Positions 6,673 through 56,337 of a stretch of 64,000 nt of DNA are shown here, one piece after another. The stretch lies in assembly GCF_000023125.1 (NCBI RefSeq), contig NC_013037.1, positions 6,116,501-6,180,500 of the forward strand, in the 5' to 3' direction. The notes beneath the pieces were generated by a model. That model did no database searches. It saw nothing but the letters and a program-made list of their open reading frames with translations, and was not told where the DNA came from. How positions within the stretch are numbered: the first letter of the stretch is position 1; each line of letters opens with the position of its first letter. The DNA comes from Dyadobacter fermentans DSM 18053. GTDB lineage: Bacteria; Bacteroidota; Bacteroidia; Cytophagales; Spirosomataceae. The position numbers and the translations under genes were made by a program.

Positions 6673-6762
6673 TGCGAATATCGGTTTTTGAAAAGAACGA
6701 AATGCGGACCGGTATCTTCTCCTGCTGAAACCTGCAAAGTTAAACCGCCGTTCCGCAAACGC

Positions 6763-7467: not shown

Positions 7468-7547
7468 AGCGACTGCATTTTTTCGGCCCTTTCCAACCAA
7501 ACGGCGCGATTGTGAATCTACCGAATAAATAAATTTATTTAATAAGT

Positions 7548-39705: not shown

Positions 39706-40730
39706 GACGACGGTCCGGAAACGATCCGGTTGATCATCGCATTGACCTTGTTCAACCAGATCGTCTGACCTTCGCAGGTCCAGTGTGAATCGCCTTTCAG
39801 ATAAGCCGCGCGGCCCAGGCGACGGAAATCGGGGAGTACGTCGATGTACGGCATGCCTAATTTTGGATTCTGATATACTTTTTCAATCAGATGATTGTAA
39901 GGCCCGTATTCCGGGCTGAGGACTGAAACCTTGTTCGGGATAATGGATAATATCACATTGTCGAAGCCCAGTGAATCGGCGAAATGGCGGCTTGCTTCAA
40001 GGTGGTTCATCACCGAGTCGAGCTCGGTAGGGCGAATGGGCGTGAACGACGACGTGATCTCCGACGTGTCGGTATCCATGTAATACACCATGTCGCGGTC
40101 GTTGTTCACGAGCGTTACACCCGAGGCCTCCCGGTCGAACAGACGGTGATTAAAGTCGGATTTCCATTCTTTTACACGTAATGCAAGGTCGTTTTGGAAC
40201 AAAAAACCATCGAGGCGGTCGGCTGTGTGCGATCCTTTGAAGGCTTCGTCGAGGCGGTGCATGAATTTGCCCGGGCCTACCCGTTCAATGAACGTCGCCG
40301 AATCGGGCACCAGCACGGTTAGCTGCGACGATAGCCGCTGGCGGAAATGGCGCTCCACGGATTCGATCAGCAGGATATTGTGCTCGTTTGTGTCCAGTTT
40401 GATATGCAGAAATTCGGACAGGTGCACGTAGGTGTATTCATCCACTGCGAAATCGGCCTTGGCTACGCGGCCTTTTTCCGTGAAACTATCGCCGATAATG
40501 TACAAATGCACTTTTCTGGCCGATTGCGGCCTGGCGGGCGGCGTGTAGCCGGCGCATTGCCTGCGTGGGTCGCGGAACTCCGAAAGCGTGGAAAGTTTAT
40601 ATAAATCACCGTACTGGTAGCCATCTTCCACAACCTGCTCCTTCCAGAGCCAGGGCAAAATGGACGGGCTCAGCCCCACAATCCAGATAAGGCAACCGAT
40701 CGCCAGAACGACATATCTTAAAATTTTCAT
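39702..40730 (-). CDS. AlgX/AlgJ-like SGNH family protein
   Basis: The 342-residue protein has an N-terminal membrane anchor (1-20, then SPSILPWLW) and the SGNH set: GDSFTE at 80-85 (Ser82) and DSHW at 314-317 (Asp314, His316) near the C-terminus. The late position of DxH and the surrounding sequence match the alginate O-acetyltransferase group. Such periplasmic enzymes add or remove acetyl groups on exported polysaccharides. It is the last gene of the surface-carbohydrate operon, 4 bases from the preceding gene, and pairs logically with the OafA-type acyltransferase. Confidence 0.82.
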   Translation of the reverse strand: MKILRYVVLAIGCLIWIVGLSPSILPWLWKEQVVEDGYQYGDLYKLSTLSEFRDPRRQCAGYTPPARPQSARKVHLYIIGDSFTEKGRVAKADFAVDEYTYVHLSEFLHIKLDTNEHNILLIESVERHFRQRLSSQLTVLVPDSATFIERVGPGKFMHRLDEAFKGSHTADRLDGFLFQNDLALRVKEWKSDFNHRLFDREASGVTLVNNDRDMVYYMDTDTSEITSSFTPIRPTELDSVMNHLEASRHFADSLGFDNVILSIIPNKVSVLSPEYGPYNHLIEKVYQNPKLGMPYIDVLPDFRRLGRAAYLKGDSHWTCEGQTIWLNKVNAMINRIVSGPSS

Positions 40731-40734
40731 AGCA

Positions 40735-43413
40735 CTATCTCAACTTGATCGACCAGACCTGTATTTTCTTTTCCGATCGGCTGAATATCAATAATTTGTA
40801 ATAACCGGGCTGGTATGTCAGCTGCACGGGCATTTCCGAAGGGATAGCCTTGTCGCCGAGCCGTCTGCCGTTGACATCAAAAACCGTCGAATAACTGCCC
40901 GATTTGATCGTGATAAACCGGTTGTCCACCCCGAAGAAATGGTATCGGATCACCGCATTGGGCAAAATATCCTTGATTTCGAACAACTCGCGGCCTTCTT
41001 TGGTAATAATAGCGGTTTTTGAGTTAACCGACCGCACAAGTATCCAATCCAGCGAATTGCGATCGAACAAAATGCGGAAGCGCGACCCGGGCTCGGGGCG
41101 GAGCAATTGTTTCCGCGAAGTAACTTTTCCGTCGAGGCTAATGCGGATCAGCTCGCCCGAAACGCTCGCTCCCACAAGTTCGGGCTGGCCGGTTTGCGGG
41201 TCCTGCGCCCAAGTGAACGGGCTTTCCGCACGTGTAAGGATATCCACCGGGAAGCCGGGCCTTACCGTCCCATTCTCTTTGAGCAGGTAAATCTTCCCAT
41301 TCTGCTGCGTCACAATGAAGCCGCGGTTGCCGATCTGGTTAAGCGCCACCACCGGGCCCACGATTTTGTCGAAACGGACCGAATGGTTCAGCTTTCTGAG
41401 GGGGCGCGTCACGCTTTCCCACACAAACAATTCTTCCGCCGAGCTTTTCAAAATGAAACGGTTACTGCCGTCCTCGCCGCCGTCGATCAGGTATAATGCC
41501 GAAATCGCGTCCTGTCCGGGCAAATGCGCCTGGAAAGTGGAGACGTTCGTCGAGTCGTCTTCGTCGAGCGCGTACACGGTGCGATCGGTCGCAAAAATGC
41601 GCTGCTGGCGGCCGATATTAAGGAAATCCACCTTGTAAGCAGCCGTGGCGATCGGGCCGTTCAGTTTCGCTATTTCTTCGGTTTTGCCTTCGCGCAGGTT
41701 GTTGGTGCGAAGCAGCTTGTGTTCCTTGTCGGTGAGCAATATTTCCGAACTTCCGTCGATCGGGTTTTGCAATGCGGCCAGTTCGGAATCGTAAATATCC
41801 GGCCACTCAATGTCGATATTCAGAAACGTCCGGTTGAGTACCTTGCTTGCCGTTTGCCGCTTTTTCGGGCGGAATGTGAGTTCGGGATAGGCCTCGCTGC
41901 CTTCGAAATGGCATTGTAATGTGATGGACTCCATTTTGGCGGTCAGGTCGCTGTATTTTTTGCTCACCTGCGTTTCTTCGCCCGACTGTGCCTTGCGAAG
42001 GTTTACGATCATCGAGAGCTGCGCCTCATTGTTCACGTTGGTGAGCACGCTGTCGTATTCAGGCGATTGCTGCCAGGTGATCTGGTTTTCGTAGTCGACA
42101 ATGTAGTTCTGCAAAACCTGCGAATTGTTGCTGATCACCAGGTAGGGCGCCACGTAAGTAATGTAGCTGCGCGGAAATCCTGTAAACATCGGCCCGTACA
42201 AGCCCGACGGCAGCTCGGCAATGGGTACGGAGTAAATGTCGTAACCCTGGTACTGATCCGCCGATACGTTACTTTCCTGATTGGCAAGGCGCGCGAGTTT
42301 TTGCAGTACCGGGCGTAGTTTGTCATAGTTGGAGAACTCAGCCAGCAGGATTTTGCCGTCGGTAATGCTGTTGTTCTCTTCCAATTGGCATAGCACAAAC
42401 TCCGAACCGATGTTGTCGATCAGCAGATTGCTTTCTCCGGCAATGTAATAGTTCAGCTTGTCCCAGGCCGGGGATTTGTATTTTTTGTGCCATTTCGAAA
42501 ATGCGGCTTTGAATGCAGCTTTATCGGAGGCCGCTGTGCGGTACAGAAATGACGTTTGCTGCGAAATATGCTTGTGGCCGATGAACGGCGTGCCCGGGTT
42601 GTCTTTCAGAAGGTCGGCCAGGTAATAATCCGGCGCATCCGCGCCATCCGATTTGATGGTCAGGTTTCCTTTGTTTTCCGTTTTTTCAATGTGAAAATCC
42701 TGGTAAACCGGGAATGCCCTGCCAAACTCGGCTAGCGTAGCCACATTTTCCATCGACATGACGGACTTCCAGGCGTCGGTGCGCAGGTAAATGCTCGTGC
42801 CGTAGTCGGAGTCGTTGATGTTCGAAAAGCGCGAACGCAGCCTGAACGAGCTGATATTGAGCGAAGAGGCACGCACGGCATCTTCAATCAGGTCGCCGTA
42901 GTAGCTTACGATCAGGAAATGGTCTTTGACGAGATAGGAAAACAACGGCCGCGAATTGGCGTCGATGGCGTCGGTAATGCGGTGGTCCTGGAAATTGTGG
43001 TGCAGCAGGCGGATATTGGCGTGCTGGGGGCTGGCGAGCCATTTGGTTTCTTCCTCGGTGACGGGAATGTACATGATCACCCCCCATTCCGTGCTGGTGC
43101 GCGGGTGGTAGGAGTAGGAGAGGTCTTTGCCTTTGAGGAATGTTTTGAGCTTCTTAGGGTCCTTCGTGAGCAGGTTCAGCAGCGTCAGGTTATCGCTGGC
43201 GATGTCGAGAAGCGGAAGGCGTTTGAGGTCCAGGGAGGCTTCGGTGGCCGTGTAGGCCGAATCTTGCAAATGCCCGCTGGTGATTACCACAACGGCATTG
43301 GACGGGATGAATTGCCAGGCTGCCGACGAGCCCCTCGACCATTTGAACAGGAAATATCCTGCCGATGCGAGAATGACGATCAGCAGGATAGCAATCAGTT
43401 TTTTTTTCGACAC
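40735..43413 (-). CDS. Large membrane-anchored protein, unknown family
   Basis: The 892-residue protein has one N-terminal membrane segment (6-24, LIAILLIVILASAGYFLFK) and a large periplasmic portion. Residues 30-500 show a mixed alpha/beta pattern (FIPSNAVVVITSGHLQDSA, then repeated AAFSKWH). From about 540 to the end the strands run in a propeller-like repeat (PIDGSSEILLTDKEHKLLR, NQIGNRGFIVTQQNGK, VNGRRLG). I recognise no named family. It lies 5 bases from the SGNH gene and 12 bases from the GT2 gene, so it belongs to the carbohydrate operon, perhaps as a scaffold. Function is inferred only from position. Confidence 0.75.
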   Translation of the reverse strand: MSKKKLIAILLIVILASAGYFLFKWSRGSSAAWQFIPSNAVVVITSGHLQDSAYTATEASLDLKRLPLLDIASDNLTLLNLLTKDPKKLKTFLKGKDLSYSYHPRTSTEWGVIMYIPVTEEETKWLASPQHANIRLLHHNFQDHRITDAIDANSRPLFSYLVKDHFLIVSYYGDLIEDAVRASSLNISSFRLRSRFSNINDSDYGTSIYLRTDAWKSVMSMENVATLAEFGRAFPVYQDFHIEKTENKGNLTIKSDGADAPDYYLADLLKDNPGTPFIGHKHISQQTSFLYRTAASDKAAFKAAFSKWHKKYKSPAWDKLNYYIAGESNLLIDNIGSEFVLCQLEENNSITDGKILLAEFSNYDKLRPVLQKLARLANQESNVSADQYQGYDIYSVPIAELPSGLYGPMFTGFPRSYITYVAPYLVISNNSQVLQNYIVDYENQITWQQSPEYDSVLTNVNNEAQLSMIVNLRKAQSGEETQVSKKYSDLTAKMESITLQCHFEGSEAYPELTFRPKKRQTASKVLNRTFLNIDIEWPDIYDSELAALQNPIDGSSEILLTDKEHKLLRTNNLREGKTEEIAKLNGPIATAAYKVDFLNIGRQQRIFATDRTVYALDEDDSTNVSTFQAHLPGQDAISALYLIDGGEDGSNRFILKSSAEELFVWESVTRPLRKLNHSVRFDKIVGPVVALNQIGNRGFIVTQQNGKIYLLKENGTVRPGFPVDILTRAESPFTWAQDPQTGQPELVGASVSGELIRISLDGKVTSRKQLLRPEPGSRFRILFDRNSLDWILVRSVNSKTAIITKEGRELFEIKDILPNAVIRYHFFGVDNRFITIKSGSYSTVFDVNGRRLGDKAIPSEMPVQLTYQPGYYKLLIFSRSEKKIQVWSIKLR

Positions 43414-43424
43414 AAGCCTGTTTT

Positions 43425-44168
43425 TTAAGCGCGGATCGCTTTCACTTTACCATTCAGTTCGAGGCGAAACCGCAAGAGTTCTTTAAAGCTTCGGATACAA
43501 ACTTTCCACAGGTTCCATTTCACAATCGAAACGGTGCCGGTTTCCCGGTCTTTGTGGGTGATAGGGATGTCGAACAGCTCCTGTCCCGATTTTTTCGCCA
43601 TCACAGCCAGGAAGATGTTCGGTGCGAACGGCTCCGGGTTGGGCAGCTGGTTCATCAGTTTTTGCAGGAATGTCCCTTTGATCAGACGGAACGGAATGTT
43701 GCTGTCCATGATGAATGTGCCATACACAGTCGAGATCGTGCCGCGGAGAAATTTCGTGATAAAGAGGCGCACGCCGGCATCGTGCCGCACCTGGCGGTAG
43801 CCGAGTATGAATTGCGATTGGGAACGCTTGTCCCAGAGTTTGTCAAAGTCTTCGGAAACGAACTGGTCGTCGCTGTCGGTCTGGAACACATATTCCGAGC
43901 CGAGTTCCAGCGCCTTGCGGTAGCCGTTAACGACCGCATTGCCATGTCCGCCGTTTTTCTGGTGAACGACCGTCAAATTGTCGATCTTCTTGTCCAGCTC
44001 ATCCAGTAACGCTTTCGTATTGTCTTTCGATCCGTCGTTGATGACGATCAGGGTAGTGTTATCGTTGGGGAATTTGGTTTTGAGGAAGGAGGTCCAATTA
44101 TAAACTACTTTTTCGATACAATCCTGCTCATTGTATGCGGGCATTACTATACTCAGAAGATATGACAT
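43425..44168 (-). CDS. Glycosyltransferase family 2
   Basis: The 247-residue enzyme has a GT-A fold: LSIVMPAYNEQDCIEKVV (5-22), LIVINDGSKDNT (41-52) and a DxD-type TDSDDQF in the middle. It resembles dolichol-phosphate mannosyltransferase-type GT2 enzymes but lacks the C-terminal membrane anchor. It probably transfers a sugar from a nucleotide donor to a lipid-linked acceptor in the cytoplasm. It sits between the acyltransferase gene (73 bases) and the 892-residue gene. Confidence 0.87.
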   Translation of the reverse strand: MSYLLSIVMPAYNEQDCIEKVVYNWTSFLKTKFPNDNTTLIVINDGSKDNTKALLDELDKKIDNLTVVHQKNGGHGNAVVNGYRKALELGSEYVFQTDSDDQFVSEDFDKLWDKRSQSQFILGYRQVRHDAGVRLFITKFLRGTISTVYGTFIMDSNIPFRLIKGTFLQKLMNQLPNPEPFAPNIFLAVMAKKSGQELFDIPITHKDRETGTVSIVKWNLWKVCIRSFKELLRFRLELNGKVKAIRA

Positions 44169-44241: not shown

Positions 44242-45378
44242 TTAGTAAGCGTACTTGTCTTTCAGGGCATTAATCGGCTTTTCGAAGAAGTGCCACGACA
44301 CCGATGCCACTAAGACAGTGAGCGCTACTACCACCGTTGCTTCGAACGCGATATTGCCTTCGAGAACGGGGACATATTGATAGATTTTCCTGAAAAGCCT
44401 GACCGTCGGGTGCATGGGGCCACTGTGAAAGTGGTTGTAGACAAAGTTGTGATACAGATAAAGGCCATAGCTTATTCTTCCCAAATAAATACATACCGGA
44501 TTTTCGAGGAACGCCGCCATCCAACCCCTGAAACCCATCACAGAGCGTCCTATCAGCATAAACCCGAAAATGGACGACATGGTTCTGTCCAACACCACGT
44601 AGGGGAAGTTGAACGGCTGCGCCAGCGATTTGGCCCACCATTGCACCAGCACCCAGCCGAGCAGCCCCAGCAGCACCGGCCACGATTTGTCGAAAAATTT
44701 AACAAACAATTCATTCTTGTACAGCTGCATCCAGGCCATAAGCCCGCCTAGTGCGAAGGAATCGAAACAGGTGGGTGTGGAAACGTACGCGACCGTCCAT
44801 TCACCCATTGTAACGAAGTTCGTACCCGGAATCCGGCCCGAGTAAAAGATGTAGGCACGCAGCAGAATGCTGAAAACGCCCATCAGTCCTAGCACAGGCA
44901 CCAGCCGGTTTTTTGGAATGAAGAATATCAGGAACGGGAAAAAGAGGTAAACCTGCTCTTCCACGGCCAGCGACCACAAATGGTCCACCGAGCCCATCCA
45001 GGTTTTGTGCAGGGCAATGTAAATGTTGGTCCCGTACAATGCGAGCCACGCGAGATTGTCGCGCACGGGCGGTACATTGAAGATGAACAGCAGGGCGATA
45101 ATCAGGTAATAAACAGGAAAAATACGGATCGTCCTGCGAATGAGGAATTTACGCAGGTATTTTTTGAAACCGCCCGGCGTTCCGTACGTTTTTTCCTTGC
45201 TTTTCAGGAGAATGCGTGAAATGAGGAAACCACTCAGTACAAAGAAAATGGTCACTCCCAGCGCCCCGAATGGGATGATGTTGATTTCTACGATGAGGTG
45301 ATCCAGCAGTACCAATCCCACTGCAATGAAGCGCACGCCGTCAAGTTGAATAATGTGTCCTTCCGAATTGGTGCGCAT
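44242..45378 (-). CDS. Acyltransferase family 3 (OafA/YrhL-type) membrane protein
   Basis: The 378-residue polytopic protein has about ten membrane segments and the acyltransferase-3 start (IIQLDGVRFIAVGLVLLDHL), with the characteristic early LLDHLI and the SVDHLWSLAVEEQ stretch (RxxR-like active site region) near residue 130. It transfers acyl groups, usually acetyl, from the cytoplasm to sugars on the periplasmic face. It is 2 bases from the membrane-protein gene upstream. In the operon it is the plausible donor module for the SGNH protein. Confidence 0.88.
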   Translation of the reverse strand: MRTNSEGHIIQLDGVRFIAVGLVLLDHLIVEINIIPFGALGVTIFFVLSGFLISRILLKSKEKTYGTPGGFKKYLRKFLIRRTIRIFPVYYLIIALLFIFNVPPVRDNLAWLALYGTNIYIALHKTWMGSVDHLWSLAVEEQVYLFFPFLIFFIPKNRLVPVLGLMGVFSILLRAYIFYSGRIPGTNFVTMGEWTVAYVSTPTCFDSFALGGLMAWMQLYKNELFVKFFDKSWPVLLGLLGWVLVQWWAKSLAQPFNFPYVVLDRTMSSIFGFMLIGRSVMGFRGWMAAFLENPVCIYLGRISYGLYLYHNFVYNHFHSGPMHPTVRLFRKIYQYVPVLEGNIAFEATVVVALTVLVASVSWHFFEKPINALKDKYAY

Positions 45379-45380
45379 GG

Positions 45381-47075
45381 TTACCAGTTAACTTTCACTT
45401 CTTTTTTATGCGTTTCTTTGACCGTCACTCGCTGGTCTTTGAACAAAATGCCGGTTTGGTCGCCCTGCTGATGAATCAGCGCAACCTTGTAATTGCCCTT
45501 CTGCATTTCCGAAAACGGAATGTCGGCATAGAAGCCTGGAGCAAAATAATACTGTTTCAGGAACAACTGCTTGCGGCTCGTGTTGCGGGTGCGCAAGGCC
45601 GGGAAAATGTAAAAGCATTCATCAGAGCTCAGGAGCACATACACGCCGCTATCCTGCAAGCGCTGGCTGGTGAACGTCGTGTTGCTTACCTTAATGGACG
45701 CCGTGTCGGTCGTAAAAGTTGTTTTATCATACAAATTCACCATTCCGCGCGAGCTGCCGGCGAAATTCTGCCGGTCGGCGATGGAAATGAGCGAGAGCCA
45801 TTTGTCGTAAATGACCGGCGTTTTCTCGACGATATTTGCTTCAAATGAAGTGTCATCGGGGTATTTCAGCGATTTATCGGTATAGGTCCAGTTGAACTGC
45901 GACGTCACCAGCTGCTTCCGCAGATTGTACGCATCCACGAGGTGATAATGGTAGCTGAACACATTGAATGTCACGGCCAACGCGATTATCGCCGTAATGT
46001 AAGGCGATAGGAAGCTGCCGCGGATGGGCACTACCACGTAAATGTAAGCGATGATCAGCAGGAGCACGGAGTAGATTTTGTACCGGCTGGTAATCAATCC
46101 TTCCAGCCCGAAACCGGCCCGGGTGTACACGACGATCAATGCGGTCCCCAAAATGAACAAGATCGCGCCGAGGCAGAACAGATCGGTCGTACGCTCAAAC
46201 TTGACGGAATATTTATTCCTGACAATGCGGAAAAGCGTGGTGGACGCAATGGAAACTGCGACCAAAAACAGCACGACACCCAGAAAGAGGCATACCTTGA
46301 AGTGGTCAAGCACCGGAATGGATTCGGCAAACGAACCCAAAAATGCCATGTAGCCTTTGGCCAGCTGCAAAATGCCCGCCTTCGATTCCGGGTTGGATTC
46401 CGGTTTGGTATACCAATAAAAATAGCAGAAGATTTCGGCAATGCTGATGACGATCCACAATGCGAACCGCTTCCTGTTACCGGCCAGGAAAAGCAGCAGG
46501 GCTCCCAACGGCAGCACCATCAGCCCGTTTCCGCTTGTGAGCACGGTGATTACACTCAGGATGATGGCAATGGCAAATGGCAGCGTTTTGGGGTTAATAA
46601 CCAGGTATAATGTCCAGAGCACGAGCGTTACCACGCCCAGATTCTGCACAGCGGCCATTCCCCAGTACATATTTTCCCAAAACGCCAGCGTCATCCACAA
46701 GAACGGGATGGGTACCAGCGCGAAAAGCGGCTTTTTGTTCTTTTTCAGCAAATCATACCATAGCGGAATCGCACCGAGGAGCAGCAGGTTGCCCGCGGTC
46801 ATGAGATGCCGGTAGTTGAGTTGCCCGAAAACAGCATAGTCGATCCACGCGAAGAGGCGCGTAAGCGCGATGCGGTGCTCGTTATGCTGTTTGAAAAGTG
46901 CCCGGATTTTTCCCTGCCAGTCACCGGCCTGCGCGTACTCGACGATGAACGTCTTCAATGCATGGTCGTCCCACTTGGGGATATTGATGGCATAGTAATC
47001 CCAGACCGTAAAATAAATAGCGACGGGTAACAGCAGGATCAGGCTCAGAATAATGGTAAAAGCCTTTTTTGTCAT
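45381..47075 (-). CDS. Polytopic membrane protein of the carbohydrate operon
   Basis: The 564-residue protein has about ten to eleven membrane segments in its first 400 residues and a soluble C-terminal domain of about 160 residues ending VKETHKKEVKVNW. The layout resembles membrane glycosyltransferases or polymerases of the GT-C kind, with an early ITVWDYYAINIPKWDDHA loop, but I find no diagnostic motif. It overlaps the transketolase C-half gene by 4 bases and is 2 bases from the acyltransferase gene. It could be a GT-C-like transferase, but this is a guess from topology. Confidence 0.75.
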   Translation of the reverse strand: MTKKAFTIILSLILLLPVAIYFTVWDYYAINIPKWDDHALKTFIVEYAQAGDWQGKIRALFKQHNEHRIALTRLFAWIDYAVFGQLNYRHLMTAGNLLLLGAIPLWYDLLKKNKKPLFALVPIPFLWMTLAFWENMYWGMAAVQNLGVVTLVLWTLYLVINPKTLPFAIAIILSVITVLTSGNGLMVLPLGALLLFLAGNRKRFALWIVISIAEIFCYFYWYTKPESNPESKAGILQLAKGYMAFLGSFAESIPVLDHFKVCLFLGVVLFLVAVSIASTTLFRIVRNKYSVKFERTTDLFCLGAILFILGTALIVVYTRAGFGLEGLITSRYKIYSVLLLIIAYIYVVVPIRGSFLSPYITAIIALAVTFNVFSYHYHLVDAYNLRKQLVTSQFNWTYTDKSLKYPDDTSFEANIVEKTPVIYDKWLSLISIADRQNFAGSSRGMVNLYDKTTFTTDTASIKVSNTTFTSQRLQDSGVYVLLSSDECFYIFPALRTRNTSRKQLFLKQYYFAPGFYADIPFSEMQKGNYKVALIHQQGDQTGILFKDQRVTVKETHKKEVKVNW

Positions 47076-47992
47076 GCCGTGATCATTAGTTGGCTGATGC
47101 TCGACAGGATCGAATCCGGGTCAAGGCCTGAAAGTTTCTGGTGGTAAGCCTGGCTGCCGTAGCGGCCATTGGGATAGCCTTCCGCTTTGAGGCTTTTGAA
47201 AACCGTCGGAAAAATGCCTTTTTCAAGTAATTGAACTGAAAGCTGCTGCGCGAGGCCCCCCGTGCTGATGTGTTCTTCGGCCACAAGCAGGGCAGGGGCC
47301 TTTTTAACCAATGCAAGAAGTTCGTCTGTCAGTTCCAGCGGGAAATGCAGGGCGCTCACTACATTCACTTTGTCAGCGATTTCGGGTGAAAGACCCAGCG
47401 CGGAAAGCACATTGTTAGCCACCGGCCCCAGCGCAAAAACCGTAATTTCGGCATTCGCAGGCTGATGAAGGACTTTAAATGAGCCTGTTGCGTAGCTGTT
47501 TGCCGGCGCGGTTTTACCGGCTCCGAGACGCAAATAAGCGGGCCGCGCGTCGGCAACGATCTGCTGCACCACCGGTCCTACCTCGTCGGCAAAAGCCGGC
47601 ACCCACATCTGCGCATTCTGCTGTCCGCTCAGGCATGCCAAATCCTCGATCGTGTGGTGGCTGCTGCCCATGATACCATAGCCATAGCCGCCGCCGTTGC
47701 CCACCAGGAATACTGGTAAGTTATTGAAACATACATCATTACGAAACTGTTCGAGACAGCGGTAGACGATGAATGGCGCAATGCTGTAACAAAAAACCTT
47801 GTAGCCTTTATGCGCAAAACCGGCCGCTACGCCCACCATATTCTGCTCGGCAACGCCCGCATTGATAAACCGCTTGCCCATTTTGGCCTGCAAGTTTTCC
47901 AATGCATTATATCCGAGGTCGCCGGTGATAAAAATAATGGACTCGTCCGCTACGGCAAGCTCTTCTATGGCTGTTGAAAATTCCTTTCTCAT
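47072..47992 (-). CDS. Transketolase-like protein, C-terminal half
   Basis: The 306-residue protein corresponds to the pyrimidine-binding plus C-terminal domains of a split transketolase. The catalytic Glu is in VAEQNMVGVAAG (near 49-60), and SSHHTIEDLACL and PADAxAxLRLGAG-type segments follow. ThDP enzymes of this kind form a heterodimer with an N-terminal half. The partner lies at 50024-50851, with the epimerase-GT2 fusion in between. It overlaps the next gene by 4 bases. It is more related to sugar-cluster transketolases than to the housekeeping full-length type, by its split form; substrate unknown. Confidence 0.87.
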   Translation of the reverse strand: MRKEFSTAIEELAVADESIIFITGDLGYNALENLQAKMGKRFINAGVAEQNMVGVAAGFAHKGYKVFCYSIAPFIVYRCLEQFRNDVCFNNLPVFLVGNGGGYGYGIMGSSHHTIEDLACLSGQQNAQMWVPAFADEVGPVVQQIVADARPAYLRLGAGKTAPANSYATGSFKVLHQPANAEITVFALGPVANNVLSALGLSPEIADKVNVVSALHFPLELTDELLALVKKAPALLVAEEHISTGGLAQQLSVQLLEKGIFPTVFKSLKAEGYPNGRYGSQAYHQKLSGLDPDSILSSISQLMITA

Positions 47993-48036
47993 CGTTAAGT
48001 GGGCCCGTGGCCGGTTATTGTCTTAACTTAAAATAC

Positions 48037-50031
48037 CTACTTTCTCAATTGCTTCACCAGAGCGCGGATCTCGTCGGCCGTTTTATAGGCTTTCGGGCCG
48101 CGGCGTATTCTGGTGCGGATGTATTTCGGCCGTTTCTTGGTCTCTTCAAATATCTTGGTAATGTATTCTCCCAAAAACGAAATGCCGAGGATCGTTAATC
48201 CGCCGAAGAAAACGATCAGGATAATGACGGTGCTGAGGCCTCGTGGCGTATCCGGGAAGAAGAAAAACTTGGCGAATATTTGCCAGATGATCCCCAGAAT
48301 GGACAAGCCCGTGAGGCCGAAACCCGCATAACTCATCAGTTCCAATGGCGCGAAACTAAATGAGAAGATCGCCTTTTTGGCCCACCAGATGTTCTTCGTC
48401 CAGTTGTTGGTGGACACGCCGAACATCCTTTCCGGCCGCACATACGGCACGCCGGTTTGTTTAAAACCAACCCAGGCACGCAGCCCGCGCAGGAATTGTT
48501 CCGTTTCGGGCAGGTCCACGAGCTCTTTCACCACTTTCCGGTCGATCATCGAAAAATCGCCTGCGTCGCGCGGGATAGGTATGTAGCTCAGCCCCTGGAA
48601 CACCTTATAAAACGATTTGTAGAAGAAATGAATATGCGGCTTCATCTCGCGCTGCACGCGAACGCCGTACACGACGTCGTAGCCATCCATCCATTTTTCG
48701 TAAAATGCGGGGATAATCTCAGGCGGATCTTGCAAATCCCCGTCCATCAGCACCACGCAATCGCCGGTAGCGATCTCCATCCCGCTCAGGAATGCCGACT
48801 GCGATCCGAAATTTCGCGAGTGGCTGATCCCCACTACATTAGGGTCTTTATCACAAATCGCATTGATCACCTCCTCCTGGTTGTCCGGTGAGCTGTCGTT
48901 CACAAAAATGATCTCGTAGCGCACCTTCAATTCATTGAAAGTCTTCACCAACCTTTCGTACATGAACGGAATGGCCTGCGCATCCTTGTAGCACGCGATG
49001 ATCGCCGTGATGACCGGATTGAGCTTCGGATTTTCGAAAGCGGGAATGACGCGCGCCTCGTACTGAATGGCATCCTGCCACTGGCTGTAACGTTTCAGAC
49101 CGTCTTCGAGCGATGTTCTGGCTTCCCAGCCGAAGTCTTTTTCAAACGCCGAAGGGTCGCCGTACCAATCGGCGAGGTCCCATTTGCGGTTGGACATGCT
49201 GCCCCATTCAGGCTCTTTCGCAATCGCGAACGCCGTGCGGGTCACTTCCACGAGGTCGCCCATGGTTGTTTTCCGGCCGGTAGCAATGTTATACGAGCGT
49301 CCCGACTTTTCGTCGTTGATATTCAATGCCGCATCCAGGAACGCTTCCACGCAGTCTTCTACAAACACAAAATCGCGGCTGATATCCGGCGACACGAGCG
49401 ATGGCAGGCCCTTTTTACGGGCATTCTCGATCAGCCGCGGGATCAGGCGGTCCGGCTCTTCCCAGTACCCGTAAATCGAGTACAGGCGAAGGTTTAGTGT
49501 TTTCAGCCCGGCTACTTTGGCATAATATTCCAGCAGATACGCCGCCGAAACCTTGGAAACCGCGTAATGGCTGTTTGGCTCCACGCGGTCGGTTTCTTTG
49601 GGAGACGTACAGTTGAAACCATATTCGGAGCTGCTTCCGGCGTGGATATACACCATCTCCTTCGAGCAGTTTTGCAGGATGTTCACCGTTCCGAGCACAT
49701 TCGTCTCGTAGGTCAGGTTCACATTGCTCTGCTTGCTGTAAGCCCCGTAGGCAGCGAGGTTGAATATGGTTTGCGGTTTGTATTTTTCAAATACTTCCTT
49801 AATCGAATTGTCCGAAAGGATATCGCAGTGAATGATGTTTTCAAAAGGTACATTCAGCAGTTTCAGGCGCCATGCTTTGGTGGCGTCGTGCGTGACTGCG
49901 TAGCAATCCTTCCGGATTTTGAAAATATCATTGAAAAGATTGGCGCCAATGAAGCCGCTGGCACCGAAAACAAAAACTGGCCCTTTTAATTTCTCTATTT
50001 TATCGCGGTAAACCGGTAAATGATCAAGCAT
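48037..50031 (-). CDS. Fused sugar epimerase/dehydratase-GT2 glycosyltransferase
   Basis: The 664-residue protein joins two enzymes. Residues 18-320 form a short-chain dehydrogenase (extended SDR) with NAD loop GASGFIG (23-29), SSSEYG and catalytic Tyr156/Lys160 (YAVSK). Residues 338-575 are a GT2 domain with ITAIIACYKD, FVNDSSPDNQEE and DGDLQDPPEI (DGD at 430-432). Residues about 575-640 carry two membrane segments, as in polyprenyl-phosphate glycosyltransferases (ArnC/DPM1). So one protein could make a sugar nucleotide and load it on a lipid carrier. It overlaps the transketolase N-half gene by 8 bases. Confidence 0.9.
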   Translation of the reverse strand: MLDHLPVYRDKIEKLKGPVFVFGASGFIGANLFNDIFKIRKDCYAVTHDATKAWRLKLLNVPFENIIHCDILSDNSIKEVFEKYKPQTIFNLAAYGAYSKQSNVNLTYETNVLGTVNILQNCSKEMVYIHAGSSSEYGFNCTSPKETDRVEPNSHYAVSKVSAAYLLEYYAKVAGLKTLNLRLYSIYGYWEEPDRLIPRLIENARKKGLPSLVSPDISRDFVFVEDCVEAFLDAALNINDEKSGRSYNIATGRKTTMGDLVEVTRTAFAIAKEPEWGSMSNRKWDLADWYGDPSAFEKDFGWEARTSLEDGLKRYSQWQDAIQYEARVIPAFENPKLNPVITAIIACYKDAQAIPFMYERLVKTFNELKVRYEIIFVNDSSPDNQEEVINAICDKDPNVVGISHSRNFGSQSAFLSGMEIATGDCVVLMDGDLQDPPEIIPAFYEKWMDGYDVVYGVRVQREMKPHIHFFYKSFYKVFQGLSYIPIPRDAGDFSMIDRKVVKELVDLPETEQFLRGLRAWVGFKQTGVPYVRPERMFGVSTNNWTKNIWWAKKAIFSFSFAPLELMSYAGFGLTGLSILGIIWQIFAKFFFFPDTPRGLSTVIILIVFFGGLTILGISFLGEYITKIFEETKKRPKYIRTRIRRGPKAYKTADEIRALVKQLRK

Positions 50032-50851
50032 TCGTCAATTCATTAAGATAACGTTCTTTTACTTCCAGTGCAGCTTGCTCATACTGGTCTTTATTCATGG
50101 GTAAATAGTGCCATTCCAATTTGTTTTCCATGTAAGAAACGCCCTTTCCCTTAACGGTGTTGGCGATAATGGCTTTGGGTAGGCCGTTTTTGTGCTTTTT
50201 CAGGCCGGTAATGGCTGCGCTGATGGCCGCAATGTCGTGCCCGTCCACTTCCACGGTTTCGAAGCCGATCGCATTCCATTTTTCAACCGAAGCCGTTTCG
50301 CCCAGAACCTTGTCGGTGGTGCCGAAACCTTGCAGGCCGTTCTTGTCGATGATCATGAAAAGGTTGTCCAGCTGGTTCTGAATGGCGTAATGCGCCGCCT
50401 CCCAGGTTGTGCCTTCGTTGGTTTCTCCATCAGACAGCAGCGTGAACGAATACGCTGCATCGCCGCCGACCTTCGCCGCATGGGCAATGCCGGTTGCGAT
50501 GGGCAGTCCGTGGCCGAGCGAACCCGTCGCGAACGGGATTCCTTTGTACTGGCGCGGGGCCGGGTGGGCGGGCAATGTGGTGCCGTCCAGGTAAAACGTG
50601 GCCAGTTCTTCGTCGGTAATTTCCCCCAGGGTGTTCAGGCATGCGTAAAGCGCCGCGGCGGCGTGCCCTTTGGAAAGGATAAATGTATCGTCGGCCGATT
50701 TTTCAAGGAAAAGGACCGCGATCATCAGGTCGATGCAGCTGAGTGAACAGCCGATATGGCCCGCATTGGCCTGATGGTAAAGACCCAGGATTTTCAGGCG
50801 AAGTTCGCCGCTTATTTGTTTAGGGTCATTCAGTATCTCTTCTGCTGTCAT
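50024..50851 (-). CDS. Transketolase-like protein, N-terminal half
   Basis: The 275-residue protein is the ThDP-pyrophosphate-binding half of a split transketolase, with SKGHAAAALYA (60-70), ATGSLGHGLPIATGIA and the Mg-ThDP loop SDGETNEG, then Asn in IIDKNGLQG. It should pair with the C-half protein at 47072-47992. It starts the core of the carbohydrate operon. A 117-base gap, possibly a promoter, separates it from the GT39 gene upstream. The C-terminal end overlaps the fused epimerase-GT2 gene by 8 bases. Confidence 0.88.
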   Translation of the reverse strand: MTAEEILNDPKQISGELRLKILGLYHQANAGHIGCSLSCIDLMIAVLFLEKSADDTFILSKGHAAAALYACLNTLGEITDEELATFYLDGTTLPAHPAPRQYKGIPFATGSLGHGLPIATGIAHAAKVGGDAAYSFTLLSDGETNEGTTWEAAHYAIQNQLDNLFMIIDKNGLQGFGTTDKVLGETASVEKWNAIGFETVEVDGHDIAAISAAITGLKKHKNGLPKAIIANTVKGKGVSYMENKLEWHYLPMNKDQYEQAALEVKERYLNELTNA

Positions 50852-50968: not shown

Positions 50969-52825
50969 TTACTCAAATCCGTACCGTTTGCCTTTCAATT
51001 TCATGATTTCCAAAGGCTCGTTGCGCCCTTGCTTTTTGATCCAGATGCGTTCTGTCTGGTTCATATCCATTACCTGCACATATTGCGCATCCTTGGGGAA
51101 GTACAGATTGGTGATTTGCGCGTCGTGGATTGAATAGGGCAGGAATGTCCGGTCCATTTCGGAGAGGATCTCGTAACGCGGTGCCGGGTAATAAATAGTG
51201 TCGCCCGGCTGGTAAGCCGCTTCGATCTTTTTTGCAGCTTCCATGTAAGGATTCGGCACACGTGGCACGGCGAAATAGCCGTACTTCGGTGAGCGGTCTT
51301 CATAGAATTCCTGTAATCTCAACCCGACAAAATAGAGCTGCGCGGCGAGGAACACGAATATCAGCACCCGGAACTCGACCTGCAATGTCGTATAAAATTG
51401 CAGCAAGAGGCTGAGCAGGATGATCACATAAGGGAATGAGAACCCGGAATACCGCTGCATGATCCCGTAAGTGTGCCCGTTTTTGAACGACATCAGGATG
51501 AGGAACAGTGTGGGCACGAGCGCCATCATGTACAACATCCAGAGCCGCGCCCGCTGCTGGCGGTCGGCGCTTTTGTGTAAATCGGGAATGAAGGATAATG
51601 CAAACAGGCTGACGCTGAGGATGCTGAACTGTAATTTGTGGTTATTGTAAAACAAACCCACGAAAATGATCAGCAGATACGGAAAGCGTGGAGTAAGCCA
51701 GGCCGGTGTGTTGATTTTGTCCTTGAAACGATACCAGCAAATAAGTATTAATGCCGCCAGCAACGCTACGGCCACGTTTTTCTTACCGCCCAATGCATCG
51801 GCCAGGCCATTGGTGAACAGGATGAGATCGGAAAAAATCGGCAGCGATTTGTTGAAGACATTCAAAGGCGTTGCAGGCAGGATATTGCCGAAAGCCTGTC
51901 CGCCCGTTTCGGCCTGGTACCGGTATCTCTCCGCCTGGTGCTGCAACGACGACAACGTGTAGACGCCCCCTCCGAACATCAGCCACCAGGTTACACCCGA
52001 AAGCGTAAACACCGCCGCAATGGCCATCCTGATCCAGCCTTTGATCGTTCTCAGGAAAAATACAGCGTACAATGCGTGCGCCAGCAGCACCGAAATCACG
52101 AGGAAATGGCTTAGCAGGCCCAATCCGGCCGATAAGATGTAACCGACGTAAAGCCAGATCACATTCCGTTTTTCCGGCTTGTTTTCAATGATTTGTAAAA
52201 AGAAATAAGTAGCTGTGAGCGTCAGGAAGAATGTGAGCGAATAGTTGCGCGCCTGATGGCTGTAAGCGATAAAAAACGGCTCGATGGCCGTGATGCCCGC
52301 TGCTATCAATCCGGTGGTGATGCCGAAAAACCGTCTTGCAAAAAGATACGTTACACCGATAATGAGCAGGCTGAAAATGACTGAAAACAGCCGTATCGAA
52401 AAGTCGGAAATGCCGATCAGGTCAATCCAGGGGTGTAAAAGCAGGTAATAGAACGGACTGTTCCCGATGTCGCTGCGCGTCATCGCTTCATAATAATCCG
52501 CGATTGACTTCGGCGCCCAGAATTCCGCGGGCGTGAATGCTTTGGGATGATAAAGTTCGTTGGCGGTAAAAGTGCGGAGCACTTGCTTCTGCGGGTGCGC
52601 GGGCGTTTTCCAGAAATACGAATCTGCCAGTTCAACGCTCGAAAAGACTTCTTTCTGGTTCGCCCCTTCGAGTACTATTCCCTGGCTGACGAGCAATGTG
52701 CTCACTTCGTCGAAAAAAATACTGTAACGGTCGAGTTGATAAAGCCTTAATGCAAGGCCGGCGATCAGAATGAGGAGGAGAATACCCCTGGTTTGCAGGG
52801 TTTCTTTGGTATGGTTGGGAGACAT
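50969..52825 (-). CDS. Glycosyltransferase family 39-type membrane protein
   Basis: The 618-residue protein has about 10-12 membrane segments and the GT39/ArnT/PMT signature of an early acidic pair after the first helix: IFFDEVSTLL, with Asp39-Glu40. A soluble C-terminal domain of about 120 residues follows. Such enzymes use polyprenyl-phosphate sugars as donors and act in the periplasm. This fits the lipid-linked sugar proposed to be made by the operon 117 bases downstream. Confidence 0.85.
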   Translation of the reverse strand: MSPNHTKETLQTRGILLLILIAGLALRLYQLDRYSIFFDEVSTLLVSQGIVLEGANQKEVFSSVELADSYFWKTPAHPQKQVLRTFTANELYHPKAFTPAEFWAPKSIADYYEAMTRSDIGNSPFYYLLLHPWIDLIGISDFSIRLFSVIFSLLIIGVTYLFARRFFGITTGLIAAGITAIEPFFIAYSHQARNYSLTFFLTLTATYFFLQIIENKPEKRNVIWLYVGYILSAGLGLLSHFLVISVLLAHALYAVFFLRTIKGWIRMAIAAVFTLSGVTWWLMFGGGVYTLSSLQHQAERYRYQAETGGQAFGNILPATPLNVFNKSLPIFSDLILFTNGLADALGGKKNVAVALLAALILICWYRFKDKINTPAWLTPRFPYLLIIFVGLFYNNHKLQFSILSVSLFALSFIPDLHKSADRQQRARLWMLYMMALVPTLFLILMSFKNGHTYGIMQRYSGFSFPYVIILLSLLLQFYTTLQVEFRVLIFVFLAAQLYFVGLRLQEFYEDRSPKYGYFAVPRVPNPYMEAAKKIEAAYQPGDTIYYPAPRYEILSEMDRTFLPYSIHDAQITNLYFPKDAQYVQVMDMNQTERIWIKKQGRNEPLEIMKLKGKRYGFE

Positions 52826-52934: not shown

Positions 52935-54956
52935 TTAGATTTTAAGAATTGTAAACTCTACTCTGCGGTTCTTCTGCCGGGTCTGTTCGGTGAGGTTGCT
53001 GGCGATGGGCCGCGCCGGTCCCCAGGCTTTGGTCTGGATGCGCCGACCGTCAATGCCTTTGGACAAAAGATATTTTTTGACCTGCTCCACGCGATCGGCC
53101 GAGAGCTTCACATTCTTTTGCACTTCGCCCTGGTTGTCGGTATGTCCTTCGAGTAGGATTTCCATCGTCGGGTAGGTTTGCATCGTCTCGGCAATCCGAT
53201 CCAACTCCACCAGCGAGGCAGGTGTCACTTCCGCGCTGCTTTGGGAAAACATGGTGTTGCTCAGTCGGATCTGCTGCCCGGCTTTGATCGGGTGCAGGTA
53301 AATGTTCTTGCGGATGGTTCGGAAGGCGTTGTCTCCGAGCAGGTCCATATCTTCCGAAACTGGGAAATAGCCTTCGCCCGATGCCGAAATGCGGTAAACT
53401 TCCTTCAATGGCAGTATGAGCCGGTACTCGCCCGTTTCGGGGTCGAAATTAGCTTTGGCGAAAGTGTTATTGCTGTTTTTGAAATCCGCTGTGATCTCGG
53501 ATTTGACCGGTTTGGTTGTTTCCGCTTCAAATACATTCCCGCTGACCACCGCCACAGGGTCCGGCTTGATTTCGGGCGTCATTCGAATGCGGAATATATC
53601 TTCCTGGCCCAGAACTTTGTCGCTAGCGCTGAAATAGGCGTAATCGCCCGTAGCGGGAATGTTGATAAATGCATCCCAGAGTGGCGAGTTAATGGCCGGT
53701 CCGAGGTTTTCGGGCGTCGACCAGTTCAGCCACGTGTCGTCCAGGCGGCGGGTAAGGAACAGGTCGCCCTCGCCGTAGCCCGCGTGGCCTTGTGAAGAGA
53801 AGTACAGGGTTTTATTGTCCAATGCGAGGAACGGCGTCCCCTCGTAATCGGCCGTGTTGATCACGCTGCCCAGGTTCCGCGGCTCGGACCACGTGTTGTC
53901 TTTTTGCAGAAATGAAATGTAAAGGTCCTTCCCGCCCTCCGAATCGGCCCGCTGGACGGACATAATTAGCACATTTTCGAATGGCGAGACGGTGATTTCG
54001 ATCGTCGTCGCCGACCCCACCAGGTTTGTTATTTTGGAAGATTTCGGAAAACCCCAGCCCGATTTGGTTTTGAACGACCGTGAAAATCCGAAATACATGC
54101 TGCCGTCGGGGCGGTATTCATTGATGAGGTAAATCGTTTTGCCATCCGCTGAAATGCTCGTAATCGCATTGTCGCCTGCATTGTTGATCGGGGAACCCAT
54201 ATTTAACGCATCCGTCCATTGGCCTTTATCATTGAGCGTCGAGTACCACACATCCTGGCGGGACGGCGAGCCGATATTGCCTTCGAAATTATTCCGTGTA
54301 AAGTAAAGCGTTTTGCCATCGGGGGAAATAATGGGCGCCACTTCCTGGCCTTTGGAGTTGATCGCCTTGCCCATATTTTCCTTCTGGGTTTTCAGCTGTG
54401 TGGCCGTAAAGTTGATCTTAGCCTCAATCGGCGCTGTTTCCGAAGAAATACCGATCGCGTCGATCTGGTTGAAACCCGGTACTTTGTTGGGCTGCAACAC
54501 CACTTTCACCGCATTGGCCTGGATGTTTTGGGTTGGGAAAATGCGTAGCATCCTTCCTTTCACCGCCTGCTGGGCAGCCGGATTTTCCAGCACGAGGTAT
54601 TCCTTGCCCGCAGCATCGTAGGCATACACCCGCGCGATGGCTCCCGGATTGAAGTTTTCAGCAATCGCGATCTGTTTCAGTGCAATGGATTTTGCAAAAC
54701 CGACCTTAATCCACTCTTCATTGCGACCGTCCGGATCAGCCGGCGACCATGCGCATGGGCTGTTACCGAAATCGGGGAGCTTGCTCGGTACGCCCAGAAT
54801 TTGTTTGGAACGGTAGGCGTGGCCTATTTGCGACGGGCGGTATTCGGACGAGTAACCCAGGACTTTGTTTGCCCACAACACTTCCTGGCAGGATGCGGAA
54901 AGCGGCATTACCGCCGTGAGAAAGCCAAAAAGATATTTTCTAAAAGTCAAATGCAT
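52935..54956 (-). CDS. OmpA-family protein with PD40 repeats
   Basis: The 673-residue protein has a signal peptide (residues 1-23; ASC at 21-23 could be a weak lipobox), an N-terminal discoidin-like or F5/8-type region (about 30-180), a set of WD40-like PD40 beta-propeller repeats (about 195-460: ISPDGKTLYFTRN, ISADGKTIYLINE), a short carboxypeptidase-regulatory-like domain (about 470-550) and a C-terminal OmpA domain with LLEGHTDNQGE and NRRVEFTIL. It links the outer membrane to peptidoglycan and perhaps binds extracellular matter. The N-terminal extension is not usual. Genes on either side are on the same strand. Confidence 0.88.
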   Translation of the reverse strand: MHLTFRKYLFGFLTAVMPLSASCQEVLWANKVLGYSSEYRPSQIGHAYRSKQILGVPSKLPDFGNSPCAWSPADPDGRNEEWIKVGFAKSIALKQIAIAENFNPGAIARVYAYDAAGKEYLVLENPAAQQAVKGRMLRIFPTQNIQANAVKVVLQPNKVPGFNQIDAIGISSETAPIEAKINFTATQLKTQKENMGKAINSKGQEVAPIISPDGKTLYFTRNNFEGNIGSPSRQDVWYSTLNDKGQWTDALNMGSPINNAGDNAITSISADGKTIYLINEYRPDGSMYFGFSRSFKTKSGWGFPKSSKITNLVGSATTIEITVSPFENVLIMSVQRADSEGGKDLYISFLQKDNTWSEPRNLGSVINTADYEGTPFLALDNKTLYFSSQGHAGYGEGDLFLTRRLDDTWLNWSTPENLGPAINSPLWDAFINIPATGDYAYFSASDKVLGQEDIFRIRMTPEIKPDPVAVVSGNVFEAETTKPVKSEITADFKNSNNTFAKANFDPETGEYRLILPLKEVYRISASGEGYFPVSEDMDLLGDNAFRTIRKNIYLHPIKAGQQIRLSNTMFSQSSAEVTPASLVELDRIAETMQTYPTMEILLEGHTDNQGEVQKNVKLSADRVEQVKKYLLSKGIDGRRIQTKAWGPARPIASNLTEQTRQKNRRVEFTILKI

Positions 54957-55026: not shown

Positions 55027-56337
55027 CTACTGCTTGGCGCCGATCAGGAGAATCCAGTCCCATTCCGGCTGCGAATCGGGCGGCTGGACGATCGCTTCTT
55101 CATCCGGTTTCAAATCTTTGCCGTTCCACCGCTTGCCGGTCCGCGGACTGTACCACACAGCCCCGAATACGGTGCCTTCCAGATGTTTGAGGTCGAGCCG
55201 GACCGGCCGGGAAGTGGGAATGTAGAGCATCGCCATCTTCTTGTTAGACAATGAAACAATGCCTATTTCGGCCTTATCGACCGAATCCGGGAGCAAATCG
55301 GGCTCGTCGGGCTGCATATATTCCCACGGAATGCCTTTGAGGATTTTCACGAGCTGGTGAATGTATTCCGCGCCGTCCTTGGTGATATTCACTTTCCAGG
55401 TCGGATTGAAATTCTTAATCGTGCTCATGTGGCAAAAGCCGGCGGCGGAACTGAGAATGGACTGGTAGGCCTGGTTGCGGATGAGCGTCGACTGGTCAGT
55501 AATTTCCTTCGGGAATTCCGAATTCGCGATGAGGAAGGGCCTTAATGCGGCTTCGGCTGAATTCTTCTGCCAGTTGGCCAATGCGGCATATTCCGCAGGA
55601 GTTACCGTGGAGTCGGGAATGATGAATTTGAGTTGCGAATGGTTGGGCGAATTGTCGTTCACGCTCGTGGGCGAGCAGGTGTTGAGCGACGCCAGGATCT
55701 GCCCGTCGGATTCAGAACGGATGCCTTCGGAAATGGCCTTGAACTGGGAAGCGCTCTGGTATTCCTCCTCGCTGACGATCCAGATGATATTGGCATATTT
55801 CGAGAAACGCTTTCCTACATAAGTTCCGTAGCTTTTCCAGGCTTCCTCTTTTTGTGTATCAAAAGCCGTGTTCCAGCTCTGCCGCGATACCACAATGCCT
55901 ACCACCAGGTTGCGCTCACGGGCTGCTATCACAATTTTTTCCAGGTAATCGAAATAGGATTTATTCGGCTTGGTGAGGTCGTTATTATCGAGGAACGGCG
56001 CAATCTTGTTGAAGTTCCGCTGGTTAGGCAATGCAGGCAGCAAATGCACGAGAAACGTGTTGAACGACTGCGACTTGCGAATATCCATGTACTGCACCGC
56101 TTCGGTGTAGCTGAGGCGCCGGAGCATTTGCCAGGCCACATCGGCCACCATCAGGAACGGCGTGCCGTTGTTGTCGGTAAGGTGCTTTCCGCTCGGGCTG
56201 ATCTTCAACGGGAACCGGGCCGGGGGTTGATCGGTGCCCCGAAACGTGAAACCGAACGACAGTACGCAGGGGAGCAATACCCAGATCAGCGATCTGGCGA
56301 CCAACGGATGGATGGTCAGCGGTCTGGAAATTTTCAT
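55027..56337 (-). CDS. DUF4038 apiosidase-like secreted protein
   Basis: The 436-residue protein has an N-terminal signal anchor (13-31) and a TIM-barrel region of the DUF4038/apiosidase-like type: LTDNNGTPFLMVADVAWQML (52-71), then IIWIVSEEEYQ (184-194) as the likely acid/base site and a C-terminal beta domain with LSNKKMAMLYIP and YSPRTGKRW. The family cleaves apiosyl or other pentosyl bonds. The acidic trio EEE at 190-192 departs from the usual NE or D motif, so activity is uncertain. It is 20 bases downstream of rpe and 70 bases upstream of the OmpA gene. Confidence 0.8.
   Translation of the reverse strand: MKISRPLTIHPLVARSLIWVLLPCVLSFGFTFRGTDQPPARFPLKISPSGKHLTDNNGTPFLMVADVAWQMLRRLSYTEAVQYMDIRKSQSFNTFLVHLLPALPNQRNFNKIAPFLDNNDLTKPNKSYFDYLEKIVIAARERNLVVGIVVSRQSWNTAFDTQKEEAWKSYGTYVGKRFSKYANIIWIVSEEEYQSASQFKAISEGIRSESDGQILASLNTCSPTSVNDNSPNHSQLKFIIPDSTVTPAEYAALANWQKNSAEAALRPFLIANSEFPKEITDQSTLIRNQAYQSILSSAAGFCHMSTIKNFNPTWKVNITKDGAEYIHQLVKILKGIPWEYMQPDEPDLLPDSVDKAEIGIVSLSNKKMAMLYIPTSRPVRLDLKHLEGTVFGAVWYSPRTGKRWNGKDLKPDEEAIVQPPDSQPEWDWILLIGAKQ

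Follow-up and report, generated by a model that had tools for sequence, protein, structure and literature searches.

A split transketolase flanking an SDR-glycosyltransferase fusion in Dyadobacter fermentans: a candidate system for making and loading a branched sugar

In Dyadobacter fermentans DSM 18053, three neighbouring genes encode the N-terminal half of a transketolase, a fusion of an extended short-chain dehydrogenase/reductase (SDR) with a family 2 glycosyltransferase (GT2), and the C-terminal half of the transketolase. They lie in a stretch of 64,000 nucleotides (positions 6,116,501 to 6,180,500 of NC_013037.1), here called the window. Computation establishes the anatomy of these genes, their conservation and co-occurrence, the catalytic residues and acceptor-pocket changes of the halves, and the relationship of the GT2 domain and its neighbours to polyprenyl-phosphate and GT-C glycosyltransferases. 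On balance we regard it as probable that the trio comprises a dedicated ketol transferase acting on an activated sugar, together with a reductase and polyprenyl-phosphate loader that feeds GT-C enzymes. We infer the reaction, the order of its steps, the reductase role, the lipid and the final glycan as follows. The two halves would form a thiamine diphosphate (ThDP) transketolase with no remaining part in the pentose phosphate pathway. A ketose or hydroxypyruvate would donate a ketol unit of two carbons, which this enzyme would join to an activated sugar at its carbonyl; the acceptor would most likely be a nucleoside diphosphate (NDP)-keto-sugar, and the product a sugar that is branched or lengthened. 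A carbonyl of this product would then be adjusted by the SDR domain, most likely through reduction, and the GT2 domain would transfer the sugar to polyprenyl phosphate; after flipping, the flanking GT-C enzymes (a 564-residue protein and a PMT_2-family protein) would set it on a periplasmic or surface glycan.

Anatomy and conservation of the three-gene locus

The open reading frame (ORF) call reproduces, to the base, the coordinates and strand given in a preliminary description of this DNA, as well as the 8-base overlap between N-half and fusion (50024-50031) and the 44-base gap between fusion and C-half (47993-48036); the Pfam matches agree with the domain make-up proposed there. The N-half matches Transketolase_N (PF00456) with 101 bits against a cut-off of 22, and the C-half matches Transket_pyr (PF02779) with 85.6 bits and, at the borderline, Transketolase_C (PF02780; 24.8 bits against a cut-off of 25.9, and 26.9 in a scan of the genome). 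The fusion joins an Epimerase-family SDR (residues 19-250, 146.9 bits) to Glycos_transf_2 (residues 343-504, 92.2 bits). The diphosphate-binding (PP) domain is thus on one chain and the pyrimidine-binding (Pyr) and C-terminal domains on the other, as in a split-gene transketolase, and the halves probably assemble into an alpha2beta2 tetramer. The same division is found in the transketolase of Carboxydothermus hydrogenoformans (ChTK; PDB 6yaj, 6yak), which both halves match best among PDB entries (179.6 and 97.6 bits) and which, according to the available part of its description, yields an active alpha2beta2 enzyme on reconstitution and is the only transketolase of that organism (PMC7661550). 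The acceptor-pocket His and Asp, which ChTK keeps, are replaced here, and the genes flank a sugar-loading fusion.

The fusion was found in 128 of 222 genomes of the family Spirosomataceae (E <= 1e-90) and in 2 of 395 genomes taken across the phylum, that of the window included. A C-half ortholog (E <= 1e-55) is present in 127 of the 222, that is, in 127 of the 128 genomes with the fusion and in none of the 94 without it (genome lists compared by eye); the lone exception, G600, is 71% complete and consists of 870 contigs. The preliminary description had made conservation of gene order its own check, and the order held: among 80 named loci, 68 read N-half, fusion, C-half and nine read N-half, C-half, fusion. 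Since both halves share the locus with the fusion in 77 of the 80, in some cases with one or two intervening genes, the arrangement is far from chance. The other three are short of one or both halves: contig ends truncate L087 and L108, and the 6.7-kb contig of L128 shows none.

The nine loci, which come from metagenome-assembled genomes of other Bacteroidota, hold none of nine window-neighbour genes (tblastn E <= 1e-10; several of the contigs are short), for which reason the trio looks like the unit. On a plasmid of Methylobacterium aquaticum, whose record is unannotated at this place, N-half, C-half and fusion stand in a row, and the fusion is 45.7% identical to that of the window over 98% of its length. 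These observations bear on the view that the genes are mere neighbours in a large glycan locus and share no sugar. The long same-strand run, with its other conserved genes, would be in keeping with that view, which is nonetheless highly improbable given the trios left intact in the nine loci and in Methylobacterium, the co-occurrence in 127 of 128 genomes and the existence of an SDR fused to a transketolase N-half (see below). In several distant loci (L119 at 6441-7902, L120, L127 at 7211-8659, and L130) the trio is followed by two genes for class I methyltransferases, and such genes stand between fusion and C-half in L111; their products may modify the sugar of the trio.

The transketolase halves and their relatives

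Residues were counted on an alignment to Escherichia coli TktA, whose sequence supplies the numbering, for 79 C-halves (78 loci and the window) and 78 N-halves. L002, L004 and L021 stand outside the C-half ortholog counts, L020 also outside the N-half counts, and the closest relatives in the family search (L023-L051) outside the residue counts. The equivalents of H26, H66, H100, D155, E160, N185 and H261 are kept in 78/78 N-halves (with one gap at H26), and those of Glu411 and His473 in 79/79 C-halves, where the catalytic histidine of the window protein is His112; the ThDP and metal site and the catalytic residues of a transketolase are in place.

The acceptor pocket differs. H461, R520 and R91 are residues that we take to contact the substrate or its phosphate in transketolase. 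H461 has become Gly in 79/79 C-halves (Gly100 in the window), D469 has become Met in 79/79 (Met108), and R91 has become Tyr in 78/78 N-halves. At position 520 an uncharged residue replaces Arg in 77/79 C-halves (Ala158 in the window), the tally being Ala 54, Val 8, Phe 7, Leu 5, Met 2, Lys 2, Asn 1 and Arg 0; the positions of S385 and R358 gave no secure alignment. The set of four residues that marks the acceptor pocket of the pentose phosphate pathway enzyme is accordingly missing from the trio halves, and all four are retained in a housekeeping-type paralog (L002). Evolution of the E. coli enzyme, with the target acceptor moved from phosphorylated to non-phosphorylated and then to aromatic aldehydes, yielded a variant altered at S385, D469 and R520, as stated in the accessible portion of that work (PMC5073344).

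Two other readings of the halves have to be weighed against these residues. One holds that they are a sugar-phosphate transketolase whose phosphorylated product, such as a heptulose phosphate, would be the precursor of the nucleotide sugar of the fusion. The core fold, the catalytic histidines and the glutamate are indeed those of a transketolase, and 5.5 kb upstream the same strand carries a ribulose-phosphate 3-epimerase gene (in 55 of the 65 loci longer than 21 kb, on which all neighbour-gene frequencies are based). Against it stand H461, D469 and R91, altered in all orthologs scored, and R520, altered in 79/79, all intact in L002; moreover, the twelve same-strand proteins include no recognised heptose-synthesis enzyme, so that this reading is decidedly unlikely. 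On the other reading the halves are transketolase in ancestry only: the donor of this ThDP enzyme would be pyruvate or a different 2-keto acid, and the branch would be of the acetyl type, as with YerE and enzymes resembling alpha-keto-acid dehydrogenases. The C-half scores with 1-deoxy-D-xylulose 5-phosphate (DXP) synthases, which use pyruvate (69.9 bits, vs 94.4 for transketolase). The known two-carbon sugar branches come mostly from pyruvate, in so far as the accessible text of two papers covers them (PMC12247030; PMC10338323). We consider this reading unlikely, because the equivalents of H26, H66, H100 and H261 are kept and the N-half scores 217 bits as transketolase and 42.8 as DXP synthase, the donor itself not being securely readable from sequence.

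The preliminary description would have been undermined if the halves formed the only transketolase of the genome, which they do not. The genome is a single contig of 6,967,790 bases, whose nearest named relatives are Dyadobacter species. A scan of it gave, for PF00456, three split N-halves and a 650-residue frame above the cut-off and one weaker match besides, and, for PF02780, the three partner C-halves, the same frame and two further proteins; the frame is presumably DXP synthase. By these two scans there is no full-length transketolase in the genome, and there are three split pairs only. From ORF reading, the pair at 3.60 Mb (L177) lies amid unrelated housekeeping-type genes, and that at 2.59 Mb (L176) shares an operon with genes for a DeoR-type regulator and an ABC sugar transporter. 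This apparent sugar-catabolic operon (L176:418-10467) has counterparts in L170, L178 and L179. The genome is presumably mesophilic; of C. hydrogenoformans alone is it stated that its only transketolase is a split one.

In the chosen sample of split transketolases that were compared, residue 461 sorts the family. Glycine is found in 11 module rows, in eight more loci that are apparent glycan clusters (L150, L152, L153, L167, L168, L169, L171 and L172), in the phage contig L021, and in L140-L142 (genomes G248, G303 and G358), close relatives of L172 for which residues only were read. Serine is found in L004, L143, L144, L147 and L170, four of which read as catabolic operons, the context of L147 being unreadable, and histidine in E. 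coli TktA and the housekeeping-type paralog. A tree of 27 C-half rows, which omits L145 (the same locus as L171), L021 and L140-L142, separates the canonical pair, a catabolic clade (95/91) and a group of 20 rows (96/88), mostly glycan-cluster enzymes and with little internal resolution.

Genomic context was seen for 12 of the 15 genomes with a C-half match, and four of the 370 plasmid records with such a match were opened, picked by rank and annotation (L149, L150, L152 and L153). Contexts come from record annotation in L150, L152 and L153, from NCBIfam and Pfam in L169 and L172, and from a reading of ORF starts in L167, L168, L170, L171, L173, L176, L177, L178 and L179, L173 and L180 being too GC-rich for safe ORF reading. 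The members with Gly-461 were met in surface-glycan clusters of Bacteroidota, Alphaproteobacteria, Desulfovibrionales and Bacillota and on a phage contig. A wider and more tentative proposal, to which we give somewhat less than even credence, is that transketolases with Gly for His form a third class, which would add a ketol unit to the carbonyls of nucleotide- or lipid-activated sugars. In the Spirosomataceae this class would be represented by a fixed three-gene machine whose reductase-loader fusion puts a new tertiary-alcohol branched sugar on polyprenyl phosphate. On the phage contig (L021:6434-12481), which comes from a viral collection and has a terminase (PHROG match), a surface-sugar cluster includes a 249-residue N-half and a short C-half of 156 residues that stops ahead of the C-terminal domain; the halves adjoin apparent sugar-phosphate transferase, aminotransferase and SDR genes.

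The fused domains and the link to CDP-sugars

In 25 aligned fusions S134, Y156 and K160, the Ser/Thr-Tyr-Lys catalytic set, are invariant, and the motifs fit an active extended SDR. In epimerases that depend on NAD, the second strand usually ends in an acid; the fused SDR, in which this strand spans 43-47 in the model, lacks the GalE-type acid and has Thr47 there in 25/25 fusions. R55 is likewise invariant, and Thr47 and R55 together would suggest a preference for NADP(H), and hence a reductase. The fold neighbours of the domain do not separate epimerases from dehydratases or decarboxylases. The label of epimerase used in the preliminary description is doubtful for the function, since Thr47 replaces the usual acid.

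Residues 341-639 of the fusion align with the membrane glycosyltransferase Sll0501 (GtrB) with 207 bits, D430 and D432 of the Asp-X-Asp motif are invariant in the same 25 fusions, and the model shows two long helices (563-591 and 599-631), in a stretch that has partly low predicted confidence (pLDDT). A GT2 domain with this motif and two membrane helices is predicted to be a polyprenyl-phosphate glycosyltransferase; the scores stay below the NCBIfam equivalog cut-offs of PgfS (234.2 of 500 bits) and ArnC (123 of 529 bits). As in the three-component systems of GtrB (Sll0501), ArnC and PgfS, in so far as the accessible text treats them (PMC11127046), the GT2 domain aligns over its whole length and GT-C partners are present. 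By relationship, the locus has a polyprenyl-phosphate sugar synthase (the GT2 of the fusion) and GT-C enzymes (the 564-residue and PMT_2 proteins). The locus departs from those systems in the fusion to an SDR, and no flippase gene was recognised at it.

The order of the steps could also be the reverse, with the GT2 domain loading a common sugar first and the SDR and transketolase acting on the lipid-linked sugar. There is a precedent in Citrobacter youngae O2, where an SDR epimerase has been inferred to act on undecaprenyl-phosphate-ribofuranose after loading (PMC11127046, in its accessible part); besides, the run contains no recognisable stand-alone dehydratase for a keto-sugar, and the fused SDR might itself make the ketone. 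This order is quite unlikely in view of the unfused clusters, which pair the transketolase with CDP-glucose enzymes that make soluble keto-sugars.

These clusters are four, the only places where a CDP-glucose (cytidine diphosphate glucose) 4,6-dehydratase adjoins the transketolase. In Methylovirgula (L150), rfbF, rfbG, an oxidoreductase gene and rfbH lie beside both halves, and the opposite strand carries GT2 and GtrA genes. In L169, from the Bacteroidota genome G044, rfbF and rfbG are followed by tktN, tktC, SDR, GtrA and GT2 genes, a set that is, by domain type, the unfused counterpart of the window trio. In L172, rfbF and rfbG accompany both halves and an SDR, and in Paenibacillus cellulosilyticus (L153, 7097-9004) a single gene joins an SDR to the transketolase N-half, the C-half comes next, and rfbF and rfbG adjoin; the record annotates this fusion merely as an SDR oxidoreductase. 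These clusters link SDR and transketolase in more than one way. In D. fermentans itself a separate CDP-glucose cluster, with rfbF and rfbG above the cut-off, lies about 0.6 Mb off (L175:7054-12149), which by our own reading also holds RfbH-like and epimerase-like genes; the dehydratase is present in 11 of 48 genomes of the genus.

Taken together, the changes in the pocket, the co-occurrence, the unfused counterpart in L169 and the SDR-transketolase fusion of L153 support the proposal of the preliminary description that a two-carbon transfer would build an unusual sugar, which would then be loaded on a lipid. Several observations weigh in the opposite direction. R520 has not been lost throughout, since lysine occurs in 2/79 C-halves, arginine in the Methylobacterium C-half, and one or the other in most other relatives from glycan clusters; and L146 has Val-461, though it falls inside the glycan group of the tree. 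The fused SDR shares just 22-23% identity with the SDRs of L150 and L153, and no match joins it to the SDRs of L169 and L172 (E <= 1e-5); the relationship being so weak, an equal role across the clusters is something that we infer. A scripted intersection of lists places the dehydratase in 27/128 genomes with the fusion vs 16/94 others (Fisher p = 0.49). In the absence of enrichment, the acceptor in Spirosomataceae must usually come from elsewhere than CDP-glucose, and the CDP-sugar acceptor hinted at by L150, L153, L169 and L172 cannot be general. The twelve same-strand proteins encoded between 39702 and 57005 include no recognisable keto-sugar-forming enzyme apart from the fused SDR. No GtrA-family gene lies within 3 Mb, the sole one being about 3.2 Mb off (other flippase families were not sought).

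Neighbouring genes, known systems and significance

The trio lies within a longer same-strand run (Table 1), most of which is conserved: among the long loci, the PMT_2 gene is kept in 62/65, the acyltransferase and the short GT2 in 63/65 each, the DUF3352 gene in 63/65 and the SGNH-like gene in 58/65. Upstream of the PMT_2 gene, an OmpA-family protein with PD40 repeats (52935-54956; 57/65 long loci) is preceded by the best promoter-like site of the region (55024-54996) and, on the same strand, by an apiosidase-like protein (55027-56337; PF13204, 129.9 bits; 36/65 long loci). Apiose is a branched sugar.

Table 1. Features of the locus and its neighbours, in window coordinates
Feature	Position	Strand	Basis
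Transketolase N-half, ThDP diphosphate-binding domain, 275 aa	50024..50851	-	ORF call, Pfam
Fusion of extended SDR and GtrB/ArnC/PgfS-like polyprenyl-phosphate glycosyltransferase, 664 aa	48037..50031	-	ORF call, Pfam
SDR domain of fusion, about residues 17-325; GASGFIG, SSSEYG and Y156xxxK160 motifs; Thr47	49057..49983	-	
GT2 domain of fusion, about residues 339-640; D430-G-D432 motif; two C-terminal membrane helices	48112..49017	-	
Transketolase C-half, pyrimidine-binding and C-terminal domains, 306 aa	47072..47992	-	ORF call, Pfam
Membrane protein of 564 aa, GT-C fold; candidate user of the lipid-linked sugar; overlaps C-half by 4 bases	45381..47075	-	
PMT_2-family GT-C glycosyltransferase, directly upstream of N-half	50969..52825	-	PF13231, 58.3 bits
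Acyltransferase_3 membrane acyltransferase	44242..45378	-	PF01757, 78.2 bits
Second, short GT2 glycosyltransferase	43425..44168	-	PF00535, 68.3 bits
DUF3352 protein	40735-43413	-	PF11832, 34.4 bits
Protein of 342 aa, read as SGNH-like; closes the same-strand run	39702-40730	-	no Pfam match

A search of titles and of the opening parts of abstracts found none on split transketolases in bacterial surface-glycan loci. The earlier statement that no described pathway has this arrangement needs a qualifier, given that split transketolases have already been proposed for the branched sugars of miharamycin and amipurimycin, where they would move a hydroxyacetyl unit to a keto-sugar with the help of an oxidoreductase (PMC12247030). 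The portion of that 2025 review available to us lists 13 further candidates, all from Streptomycetes and none characterised in vitro, and presents the acceptance of sugar ketones by natural transketolases as still open, being proposed for the two nucleoside antibiotics and unproven (PMC12247030). In contrast to those enzymes, the present ones belong to a conserved locus of Bacteroidota (and of one Methylobacterium) with an SDR-GT2 fusion. The same source, in that portion, describes YerE of the yersiniose A pathway, a ThDP enzyme of the decarboxylase class that attaches two carbons from pyruvate to a CDP-keto-sugar destined for a surface glycan (PMC12247030). The proximity of CDP-glucose genes in four relatives of the locus resembles that pathway. 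The enzyme here, by contrast, is a transketolase, and a CDP-glucose 4,6-dehydratase was not detected in 101 of the 128 genomes with the fusion; a source of a yersiniose-type CDP-4-keto-sugar was not recognised at the locus, the dehydratase of this genome lying about 0.6 Mb away.

The locus is a compact and conserved test case for a ketone-accepting transketolase, with a linked SDR and loading enzyme, and for its relatives in CDP-sugar clusters the likely acceptor can be obtained with known enzymes. If transketolases with Gly for His do form a third class, a natural ketone-accepting transketolase would exist outside Streptomyces. Should the ketol-transfer proposal be true, the residue signature would serve to spot ketol-branching enzymes in glycan clusters, and many Spirosomataceae would carry a surface sugar that has yet to be described.

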